From assembly GCA_021204025.1 (NCBI GenBank), contig JAJQAC010000016.1, forward strand, positions 1-64,000: a stretch of 64,000 nucleotides of DNA, given 5' to 3'. The notes below the pieces were generated by a model. It saw nothing but the letters and a program-made list of their open reading frames with translations, ran no database searches and was not told where the DNA came from. The position numbers were made by a program, and so were the translations under genes. Each line of letters starts with the position of its first letter. Position 1 is the stretch's first letter. The DNA comes from Clostridiales bacterium (GTDB lineage: Bacteria; Bacillota; Clostridia; Lachnospirales; Lachnospiraceae). This document shows positions 10,868 through 42,172 of the stretch, one piece after another.

Positions 10868-11413
10868 ATGAATATTGTACTATTAGAGCCGGAGATCCCG
10901 TCCAACACCGGGAATATCGGACGGACCTGTGTGGCGACAGGAACCCGTCTGCATCTGATCGGTCCGCTGGGATTTCGTCTCAGTGAAAAGGAGAGGAAAC
11001 GGGCCGGACTTGACTACTGGGATAAGCTGGATGTAACAGAATATGTGGATTATGAGGATTTCCTGGAAAAGAATCCGGGCATAAAGTGTTATTATGCGAC
11101 AACTAAGGGACAGAAACGTTACACAGATGTTGTTTATGATCCGGACTGTTATATTATGTTTGGCAAAGAGAGCGCCGGCATTCCGGAAGAGATCCTGATT
11201 GAGCATCCTCAGGAGTGTGTGCGTATCCCGATGTGGGGAGAGATCCGCTCATTGAATCTTGCGAATTCCGTGGCAGTGATTTTATATGAGGCGCTGCGGC
11301 AAAATGATTTTGAGAAGTTGAATGATCGGGGGCAGCTGCATCGATTGAAATGGCCGGAGAAAAATCAGGGGTTTATTCTGGATCGGAAAGCTGATTTTGG
11401 GAAGATAGAATAG
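10868..11413 (+). CDS. trmL: tRNA (cytidine(34)-2'-O)-methyltransferase TrmL
   Basis: MNIVLLEPEIPSNTGNIGRTC, MFGKESAGIPEEIL, RSLNLANSVAVILYEALRQ SPOUT motifs. Confidence 0.9.
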   Translation: MNIVLLEPEIPSNTGNIGRTCVATGTRLHLIGPLGFRLSEKERKRAGLDYWDKLDVTEYVDYEDFLEKNPGIKCYYATTKGQKRYTDVVYDPDCYIMFGKESAGIPEEILIEHPQECVRIPMWGEIRSLNLANSVAVILYEALRQNDFEKLNDRGQLHRLKWPEKNQGFILDRKADFGKIE

Positions 11414-11464: not shown

Positions 11465-11518
11465 TTGCAAAATGAGTTAGAATGTGCTAACATACATATC
11501 AGTTAGCAAAGACTAACT
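11465..11518 (+). promoter_or_regulatory. Putative sigma-A promoter overlapped by two GTTAG-N6-CTAAC palindromes (DtxR/IdeR-like operator candidate)
   Basis: TTGCAA - 17 bp - TAACAT; palindromes at 11476-11491 and 11501-11518. Confidence 0.5.
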
Positions 11519-11624
11519 ACATGTGAATATTCTATACATTTCAAAGTTGCTCCATCTGACCCGTGGAGACAATGACTCAACTCCTATGAAAAGACTGCCT
11601 GCCCCGCAAGCCAGGCGGTTTTTT
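11500..11624 (+). ncRNA. Candidate small RNA (about 125 nt)
   Basis: Predicted promoter upstream, nested stem AGTTG CTCCA ... TGGAG ... CAACT, ending in terminator ACTGCCTG/CAGGCGGT + TTTTTT; no substantial ORF. Confidence 0.35.
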
Positions 11625-11659
11625 CATCTTACAGGAAAGTTCGTCCTGTAAGATGAAAA
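11621..11659. repeat. Hairpin repeat copy 1 (16-bp stem, loop AAGTTCG)
   Basis: TTTTCATCTTACAGGA AAGTTCG TCCTGTAAGATGAAAA; covaries with the copy at 33436. Confidence 0.7.
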
Positions 11660-12064: not shown

Positions 12065-13474
12065 ATGAAATTTGAAAAATCTCTGACGAAGAATCTGGAA
12101 CATATCCGGCAGACGCTGCAGATCGATAAGAACTTTGACCTTGTCTGCCGGGTGATTGATATGGGCGGACGTAAAGCCGCTCTGATCTTTGTAGACGGAT
12201 TTACAAAGGATGAGGTGCTGTTAAAGATCATGCAGGCATGGTCGAGCATCAAGGAGGAAGATCTGCCGGAAGACGCGCAGGCATTCTCAAAAAAATACGT
12301 GCCGTATGGGGAGATCAGTCTGATTGATCAGGAGGAGGACATGGTCGTCCAGCTTCTGACTGGCATTACCTGCCTCTTCGTGGATGGTTATGAGCAATGT
12401 ATTACGATTGACTGCCGCACGTATCCGGCGAGAAATGTGGACGAACCGGATAAGGATAAGGTTATGCGGGGATCTCGGGATGGCTTCGTGGAGACGCTGA
12501 TCTTTAATACCGCGCTGATCCGGCGCAGGATCCGGGATCCGAAGCTGACCATGGAGATCACAAGCGCCGGAGAGAGCTCTCATACGGATATCGCGATCTG
12601 TTATATGGATGGACGGGTAGATCAGGAACTGCTCGAACGGGTCAAAAAGCAGATTGCAGATCTGCGCGTAGACGCGCTGACGATGAACCAGGAGAGTCTT
12701 GCGGAGGCGATTTATCCCTATAAATGGTATAATCCATTTCCGAAGTTCAAGTTTTCCGAACGGCCGGACACTGCGGCGGCGTGCATCCTGGAGGGGAATA
12801 TCGTCATACTGGTGGATAATTCGCCGGCGGCGATGATATTGCCCTCGTCGGTGTTTGATATCATCGAGGAAGCGGACGACTATTATTTCCCTCCGATCAC
12901 GGGAACCTATCTGCGGCTGTCCCGGATGGCGGCGGCCATCCTGTGCCTGCTGCTGACACCGACCTGGTTGCTTCTGATGATGCACCCGGATAGTCTGCCG
13001 CCCTGGCTGCAGTTTATCCGGCTCGCAGACATCAGCTATGTGCCTCTTCTGGTACAGTTGCTGATCCTGGAATTTGCGATCGACGGCCTGCGTCTCGCCG
13101 CGGTCAATACGCCGAATATGCTCTCTACGCCGTTTAGCGTGATCGCCGGTATCGTGCTGGGAGAGTATTCCGTGAAGTCCGGATGGTTCAATCCGGAAAC
13201 CATGCTGTATATGGCGTTTGTCACGATCGCGAATTACAGCCAGTCGAGTTTTGAACTGGGCTATGCGTTGAAGTTTATGCGGGTTGTCCTGCTGCTTTTG
13301 ACTGGGTGGCTGGATGTCTGGGGATATGTAATTGGTCTGATCCTTTCGATCTGCGCGATTGTTTTTAATCAGACGATTGCGGGGAAAAGTTATATTTATC
13401 CGCTGATCCCGTTTCGTTTGAGCGAGCTTAAAAAAAGATTCTTCCGGGAGCGACTGCCGGTAAAGAAGGATTGA
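12065..13474 (+). CDS. Spore germination GerA/SpoVAF family protein
   Basis: GerA-family signature RRIRDPKL, LFVDGYEQCITIDCRTYPARNVDEPDKDKVMRGSRDGFVETLIFNTALIRRRIRDP; TM helices; start after ggagg RBS. Confidence 0.85.
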   Translation: MKFEKSLTKNLEHIRQTLQIDKNFDLVCRVIDMGGRKAALIFVDGFTKDEVLLKIMQAWSSIKEEDLPEDAQAFSKKYVPYGEISLIDQEEDMVVQLLTGITCLFVDGYEQCITIDCRTYPARNVDEPDKDKVMRGSRDGFVETLIFNTALIRRRIRDPKLTMEITSAGESSHTDIAICYMDGRVDQELLERVKKQIADLRVDALTMNQESLAEAIYPYKWYNPFPKFKFSERPDTAAACILEGNIVILVDNSPAAMILPSSVFDIIEEADDYYFPPITGTYLRLSRMAAAILCLLLTPTWLLLMMHPDSLPPWLQFIRLADISYVPLLVQLLILEFAIDGLRLAAVNTPNMLSTPFSVIAGIVLGEYSVKSGWFNPETMLYMAFVTIANYSQSSFELGYALKFMRVVLLLLTGWLDVWGYVIGLILSICAIVFNQTIAGKSYIYPLIPFRLSELKKRFFRERLPVKKD

Positions 13475-28499: not shown

Positions 28500-28725
28500 C
28501 GGCACTAAAAATTGAATAAAGATCAAGTGCCGGAGGCGATCCGGGTAAAAGGGAATTGAGTGAGAATCTCAAGCGAACTGGTCACTGTGTAGGGGAGTGT
28601 ATCCGCAGGATACCATTGCGTGGGAGCGTGAGAAGGGAGCGGATATGCGTCGATCTGAAGTCAGGAAACCTGCTTGGTCTTTGGACATTGGCGCTTCCTG
28701 TACTAAGTGGTCAATAAGAAAGAGA
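28500..28725 (+). promoter_or_regulatory. Cobalamin (AdoCbl) riboswitch
   Basis: GGGTAAAAGGGAATTGAGTGAGAATCTCAAGCGAACTGGTCACTGTG ... GAAGTCAGGAAACCTGC core; followed by a terminator and an ABC transporter operon. Confidence 0.85.
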
Positions 28726-41729: not shown

Positions 41730-41924
41730 ACCTCGGTTCCAAAAATTTTTTCAAAAAAAGCGCCTGCAAATGTTCCTGCAGACGCTGTGAAATCGGAAAA
41801 CGGGGCAAGAAAACCAGCCGTTGATATCTGTAGGACAGAAAAACGGCATTTTTTATTATGATAAGCCCCTGATATCCCGGCTCCGGAAGTCCGCAGAGTC
41901 AGCATACTGCCGTCATAAGCGGCA

Positions 41925-42085
41925 GAGATACAGGCAAGTATTCTGGCTTATCGCCTGACCGACAAGGGTCGGCTCCCGCGTCTTCCCGGTTTACCCAGTG
42001 ACTTATATGCAGGAGCTTGCGGCGAAATACAGCAACGGCCTTGCGCGGGATTCCCACCCGGCTTCCATAACCTGTACTCCATGTC
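41925..42085 (-). promoter_or_regulatory. Cobalamin riboswitch
   Basis: On the minus strand: ACAGGTTATGGAAGCCGGGTGGGAATCCCGCGCAAGG...GTCACTGGGTAAACCGGGAAGACGCGGGAGCCGACCC...AAGCCAGAATACTTGCCTGTA. Confidence 0.9.
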
Positions 42086-42172
42086 TGGGTTGATTGTAAC
42101 ACTGTGGGGAAAGAAAAGCAAGGTTCGGGTGTTCGTTTTTGCTCATAACCGGTTATATCGTTACATGTCACA

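Follow-up and report, generated by a model that had tools for sequence, protein, structure and literature searches.

Does a stretch without a convincing open reading frame, lying between a palindrome-bearing promoter and a terminator, encode an RNA of its own, or is it the remnant of a leader whose genes are gone? This question is raised by positions 11465-11624 of the forward strand of a 64,000-nucleotide (nt) window, by which we mean the whole stretch of DNA that was analysed, from a Clostridiales bacterium of the family Lachnospiraceae (contig JAJQAC010000016.1). An earlier note had read the site either as a metal-regulated small RNA (sRNA), RyhB-like in logic, or as the leader of a deleted feo operon, and preferred the former. 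Our analysis supports this preference: the operators of the site are common to the feo genes of the same genome, and the sole clear DtxR gene follows feoB. On the strength of sequence comparison, the locus quite probably encodes an sRNA that stands on its own, is repressed by DtxR and is induced by iron starvation; its CUGACCC loop and ACUCCUAUGA linker would pair with ribosome-binding sites. We regard the RNA as representing a real and conserved sRNA family, probably repressed by iron, that is itself new but whose functional kind is known.

Iron-sparing sRNAs have been described in proteobacteria, bacilli, staphylococci and mycobacteria; for the Lachnospiraceae we found none in Rfam or in the open literature searched. 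The human colon has members of this family among its dominant bacteria, and they rely heavily on iron-sulphur (Fe-S) enzymes. If our reading is correct, iron rationing in these anaerobes would be explained by a regulator, the code of its operators and an sRNA, and this could be tested directly in cultivable species, e.g. Brotaphodocola catenula.

A conserved RNA gene

The features that define the gene, all on the forward strand, can be read directly in the sequence. As the earlier note had described, a TTGCAA -35 hexamer (11465-11470) and a TAACAT -10 hexamer (11488-11493) are separated by 17 base pairs (bp), and the promoter is overlapped by a palindrome; the -10 is of the extended type, being preceded by TGC. 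Among the 24 copies of the RNA compared, a TTG-bearing -35 stands at the same position in every one, and TAACAT, TAATAT or a near variant forms every -10. The palindrome over the -10 is a DtxR-type operator, GTTAGAATGTGCTAAC (11476-11491), which has 0-2 mismatches in 21 of the 24 copies; the three copies without a normal upstream operator, one of the tandem pair in genome G016 and both of the pair in genome G381, are degenerate here. A second palindrome had been described just past the predicted transcription start. This downstream operator, GTTAGCAAAGACTAAC (11502-11517), is indeed present at the start, which is predicted to be A11501, and it is exact in all 24 copies. The two operators are 25 or 26 bp apart in the 21 copies with a normal upstream operator. 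Downstream lies the intrinsic terminator that had also been described (11589-11624), evident from both sequence and fold, with a C-rich loop and a T6 tail that ends at 11624. The letters of its stem vary freely among relatives, and the stem and the T-run are kept.

A generic sigma-70 scan did not call the promoter of the site because the hexamers fall below its threshold, and a generic terminator scan called the terminator solely on the opposite strand. The two exact GTTAG-N6-CTAAC palindromes are the sole matches in the window, even when one mismatch is allowed. At that tolerance about 0.55 matches are expected in shuffled sequences, and 9 of 100 shuffles reach two. The palindrome count by itself is weak evidence; judged by the copies compared, it is conservation that decides, and this is far above chance.

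With its start placed from the -10 and its end from the T-run, the predicted RNA is a conserved block of about 124 nt (11501-11624). A 201-nt region matches 17 other genomes, the longer matches being 75-93% identical. We searched further with two covariance models (R1 and R2), one built from 17 copies and a second adding divergent copies. These find the RNA in the bacterium's own genus, where 15 of 24 genomes have it, and in no fewer than six further genera of the Lachnospiraceae; among 397 genomes drawn across the family there are eight carriers, two of them from the own genus. A class-wide scan of 392 genomes of Clostridia gave zero carriers outside the Lachnospiraceae. Judged by covariance-model search, the RNA is common and not universal, as it is missing from about a third of its genus. 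Named carriers include Brotaphodocola catenula, a member of the Lachnospiraceae with two tandem copies, Clostridium sp. MCC353, Clostridium sp. chh4-2, Candidatus Hungatella pullicola and Candidatus Ventrimonas merdavium. The gene is duplicated in two carriers, with copies about 1 kb apart in B. catenula (L047) and 3.8 kb apart in G381 (L042/L043).

No Rfam family matches the RNA at gathering scores, and a permissive threshold gave chance-level matches alone. A known Rfam RNA (RyhB, PrrF, FsrA and others) was rejected as an explanation, since no curated covariance model matches. The conserved sequence has no match in the open literature searched either. A large catalogue of structured RNAs from the human microbiome (PMC8040213) may already list the family without a function.

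The predicted structure has four parts ahead of the terminator. In the RNA, the downstream operator becomes a 5′ hairpin, AGUUAG-CAAAGA-CUAACU. Five of its six pairs are invariant among the copies, and covariation therefore cannot separate a DNA operator from an RNA stem. The hairpin is followed by a near-invariant region, CAUGUGAAUAUUCUAUACAUUU (11520-11541), in which almost all columns are invariant across 17 copies; the mean unpaired probability for 11519-11545, around this region, is about 0.7. The stem that the earlier note had seen in the middle of the RNA is real and covaries. This central hairpin (11546-11573) has compensatory changes in seven of the eight pairs of its main helix, among 24 distinct sequences, and its CUGACCC loop is about 97% unpaired. 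The fourth part is a linker, GACUCAACUCCUAUGAA (11574-11590), about 85% unpaired, with a CUCCU that is complementary to Shine-Dalgarno sequences; the AACUCCU within it is predicted to be 88% unpaired. The structure as a whole scores 0.323 for covariation; shuffles score 0.179 +/- 0.014, and none of them reached the observed value. The alignment used here was fitted to the structure, which favours the score; an alignment made from sequence only (A3) gives a weaker signal in the same direction.

Two subtypes of the RNA can be told apart. Type A, found in the own genus, carries ACUCAACUCCUAUGA after the central hairpin; in type B there is AUCAUGACUCCUACGA and an additional hairpin, AACCC/GGGUU. 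Within either subtype, ACUCCUAYGA is present in most copies.

Coding potential and candidate targets

The claim that the RNA contains no convincing reading frame holds. The sole frame starts with GTG at 11523 ('VNILYI...'), and in relatives it measures anything from 6 to 100 codons, with stops and frame shifts; no Shine-Dalgarno sequence for it was seen by eye. We rejected a small protein as the product because this frame is not conserved. The exposed CUCCU and CUGACCC look instead like pairing sites in the fold model.

Candidate targets of the CUCCU linker were sought both by pattern and by duplex energy with comparison of orthologues. The prediction covered a sample of about 786 kb of the bacterium's genome, available as separate stretches, with 642 genes in the final count. 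Ranked by duplex energy, ilvD is third and leuD sixth among these genes; both belong to the branched-chain pathway, with its Fe-S dehydratases. When the genome itself and a near twin were excluded, pairing across relatives gave p = 0.016 for leuD, uncorrected over 16 groups. With good scores in the genome itself and weakly conserved pairing, leuD and ilvD are suggestive candidates, too weak to claim as targets. Hfq (PF17209) was not found in the genome, which is 98.5% complete, and it was detected in control genomes that have it.

An RNA of a different kind would be a dual-function or protein-binding one, working through a small peptide or by titrating a regulator and not by pairing. The near-invariant 22 nt at 11520-11541 speak for this, as no clear pairing partner was found for them in the genome, where long complements amount to just two sites with three mismatches besides the region itself. 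That said, the erratic reading frame and the exposed pairing-like sites argue against such an RNA. We consider this explanation unlikely.

A shared operator and its candidate repressor

The earlier note had likened the palindromes to the DtxR/IdeR-type operators found before feo genes and had suggested a scan of the genome for comparison with feo promoters. The resemblance is borne out in the bacterium's own genome. The motif flanks the promoter of feoA-feoA-feoB: one copy, GTTAGCTATTGACAAC, covers the -35, and the other, GTTAGGAGACGCTAAC, follows the TATAAT closely. It is also present twice in the promoter of a Fur-family gene that adjoins a ZnuA-type transporter, across the -10 of a gene of the DUF3793 family, and before a NusG_II/ApbE-like pair. 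At feoA-feoA-feoB, the Fur-like gene and the DUF3793 gene, its placement over the -10 or the start matches that at the RNA; in the latter two, the operator lies within the promoter as the upstream operator of the RNA does. Sequence comparison demonstrates the gene with its conservation, its structure, its operators and the regulon it shares.

The motif is also found in other genomes. The G381 genome has 25 exact GTTAGN6CTAAC sites against three for the reversed control pattern, which suggests that the operator regulon is much larger in that genus. In genera other than the bacterium's own, the motif lies before a peroxiredoxin gene and a superoxide dismutase gene, a site before the latter being one of those in G381. 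A genome from another family of the order (G086, L032:1520-1600) has a double operator with the same spacing, plus a third copy downstream, before a lipoprotein-like gene; the sRNA is not there, and this arrangement of operators is thus not confined to the RNA.

A single protein of the genome scores above the DtxR-family cut-off, and its gene lies directly after feoB, in the operator-bearing cluster. The protein has 137 amino acids and both DtxR domains. It aligns best with DtxR of C. diphtheriae, and the two have A-C-R-x-E-H in common, a stretch that in known DtxR structures holds the metal ligands Cys102, Glu105 and His106. At the position of the DtxR ligand Met10 the protein has Asn, and its metal specificity is, on this alignment, not certain. 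We infer iron-dependent repression by this feoB-adjacent protein as the most economical reading.

It is nonetheless conceivable, and in our judgement quite unlikely, that the repressor senses manganese or some other metal, or that the neighbouring Fur-family protein is the repressor, which would place the RNA in a different metal response. The size of the protein, which is that of an MntR, and the Asn would fit, as would the Fur-like gene and ZnuA-type transporter beside feo, the former under the same operators, and the superoxide dismutase and peroxiredoxin genes behind the motif in other genera. Against this, two of the places where the operator stands, feoA-feoA-feoB and a DUF3793 gene like those found ahead of flavodoxin, have functions in iron starvation; moreover, the best structural relatives of the protein are iron repressors, and its metal site has the Cys of the DtxR type.

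Genomic neighbourhood

A trmL-like transfer RNA methyltransferase gene (10868-11413, forward strand, named by eye and after the earlier note) lies upstream of the RNA here and in most loci of the same genus. Downstream is a gene that by eye resembles a spore germination protein of the GerKA type (12065-13474, forward strand); both genes are outside the RNA. Within the genus, the genes that follow the RNA vary widely, some of them lying on the other strand; outside the genus, the RNA has different neighbours once more. The observation that no feo gene follows holds at every relative locus examined, and in the bacterium's own genome feo is located elsewhere, under its own promoter.

In three relatives, G210 (L041), Clostridium sp. 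chh4-2 and Clostridium sp. MCC353, a DUF3793-like gene comes directly after the RNA; such genes were assigned by similarity to the protein of our genome, which was itself tested against Pfam. In the latter two, the DUF3793-like gene has an operator of its own and is followed by a flavodoxin-like gene. In G210, about 110 nt separate the end of the RNA from the DUF3793-like gene, which lacks an operator of its own, and in some relatives, this one included, local read-through from the RNA into the next gene is possible. In G016, a DUF3793-flavodoxin pair has the operator by itself.

We rejected a decayed feo leader, as the downstream genes of relatives are variable and none is feo, and as the RNA and its terminator are conserved before unrelated genes. 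More broadly, it is very improbable that the RNA is what remains of the leader of a lost feo operon, or that it acts in cis as an attenuator or riboswitch for the next gene: the arrangement in G210 would allow control in cis, but the diversity and orientation of the downstream genes, the separate feo promoter, the operator that two DUF3793-like genes have for themselves and the strong constraint on positions of the RNA, which is not decaying, all argue against it.

DUF3793 genes are of interest in their own right. Repeatedly (L062:2374-2958 and loci L041, L046, L051, L100 and L109), their promoters contain the operator or the genes lie behind the sRNA, and they often stand before a flavodoxin gene. 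Because of this company, we suggest a role in iron starvation for the family.

Right after the terminator of the sRNA is a small hairpin repeat, AGGAAAGTTCGTCCTGTAAGATGAAAA (11631-11659). The same pattern occurs at four more sampled places in the genome (L117, L122, L125 and L139), and similar repeats follow the RNA in G016 and G009. Elsewhere, the window contains two cobalamin riboswitches (RF00174), at 28508-28691 on the forward strand (94.6 bits) and at 41916-42090 on the reverse strand (58.7 bits).

Proposed mechanism

The iron-starvation sRNA that we favour would work as follows. The RNA would be transcribed as a unit of its own, between its promoter and its terminator. As long as Fe(II) is abundant, the DtxR-family repressor would bind both operators, over the -10 and at the start, and block transcription; when iron is low, the RNA would be made at the same time as the Feo uptake system and the products of the other genes that have the operator. 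With its operator-derived 5′ hairpin, its unpaired near-invariant stretch, its covarying hairpin with a C-rich loop and its unpaired ACUCCUAUGA linker, it would most likely pair, without Hfq, with the ribosome-binding sites of messenger RNAs for dispensable iron-using proteins and reduce their translation. The identity of the repressor, the metal and the action by pairing are the parts that we infer.

Several observations weigh against this account. Besides the G210 arrangement and the Asn at a DtxR ligand position, the pairing of ilvD across relatives, under the same exclusions as above, is not significant (p = 0.16), and the best-scoring neighbour, ilvB (p = 0.001, uncorrected, 16 groups), has no known Fe-S cluster. 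The number of operators in the bacterium's own genome does not help either: with one mismatch allowed there are 16 near matches to the operator and 64 to the reversed pattern. Since the count is not above this control, we rejected it as evidence, and the assignment of genes to the regulon rests on context and conservation.

More tentatively, the Lachnospiraceae may possess an Hfq-free iron-sparing system, in which a DtxR repressor controls an sRNA with three separate pairing modules, one operator doubles as a stabilizing hairpin at the 5′ end and the 22-nt stretch recognizes a conserved partner.

Comparison with known systems

In Escherichia coli, the repressor of iron uptake also represses the sRNA RyhB, which when induced spares iron. 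The RNA described here is like RyhB in logic alone; RyhB depends on Fur and Hfq and is unrelated in sequence, and no Hfq is detectable here. FsrA of Bacillus subtilis is likewise controlled by Fur. It is an iron-sparing sRNA whose C-rich sequence pairs with Shine-Dalgarno regions (PMC9410917). Our RNA shares with it a Firmicute host and a C-rich sequence suited to such regions; FsrA is aided by Fbp proteins, and the RNA here has no Rfam match.

A closer parallel in layout is IsrR of Staphylococcus aureus, a 174-nt, Hfq-independent sRNA of iron starvation with two Fur boxes; C-rich stretches that it leaves single-stranded, both within loops and next to a stem, pair with Shine-Dalgarno sequences (PMC9410917). 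The RNA resembles IsrR in the pair of repressor sites at its promoter, in its exposed C-rich stretches and in a predicted independence of Hfq. IsrR is controlled by Fur and belongs to the staphylococci; we see no relation to it in sequence or synteny, and targets are unproven here. Especially close in logic is MrsI (ncRv11846) of mycobacteria, an iron-starvation sRNA of about 100 nt that has an IdeR site in its promoter and represses non-essential iron proteins (PMC8628891). MrsI is actinobacterial and we see no sequence relation to it; the proposed logic of iron starvation and a promoter with a DtxR-type site are common to both, and the RNA of the Lachnospiraceae has two operators, one of which is also its 5′ hairpin.
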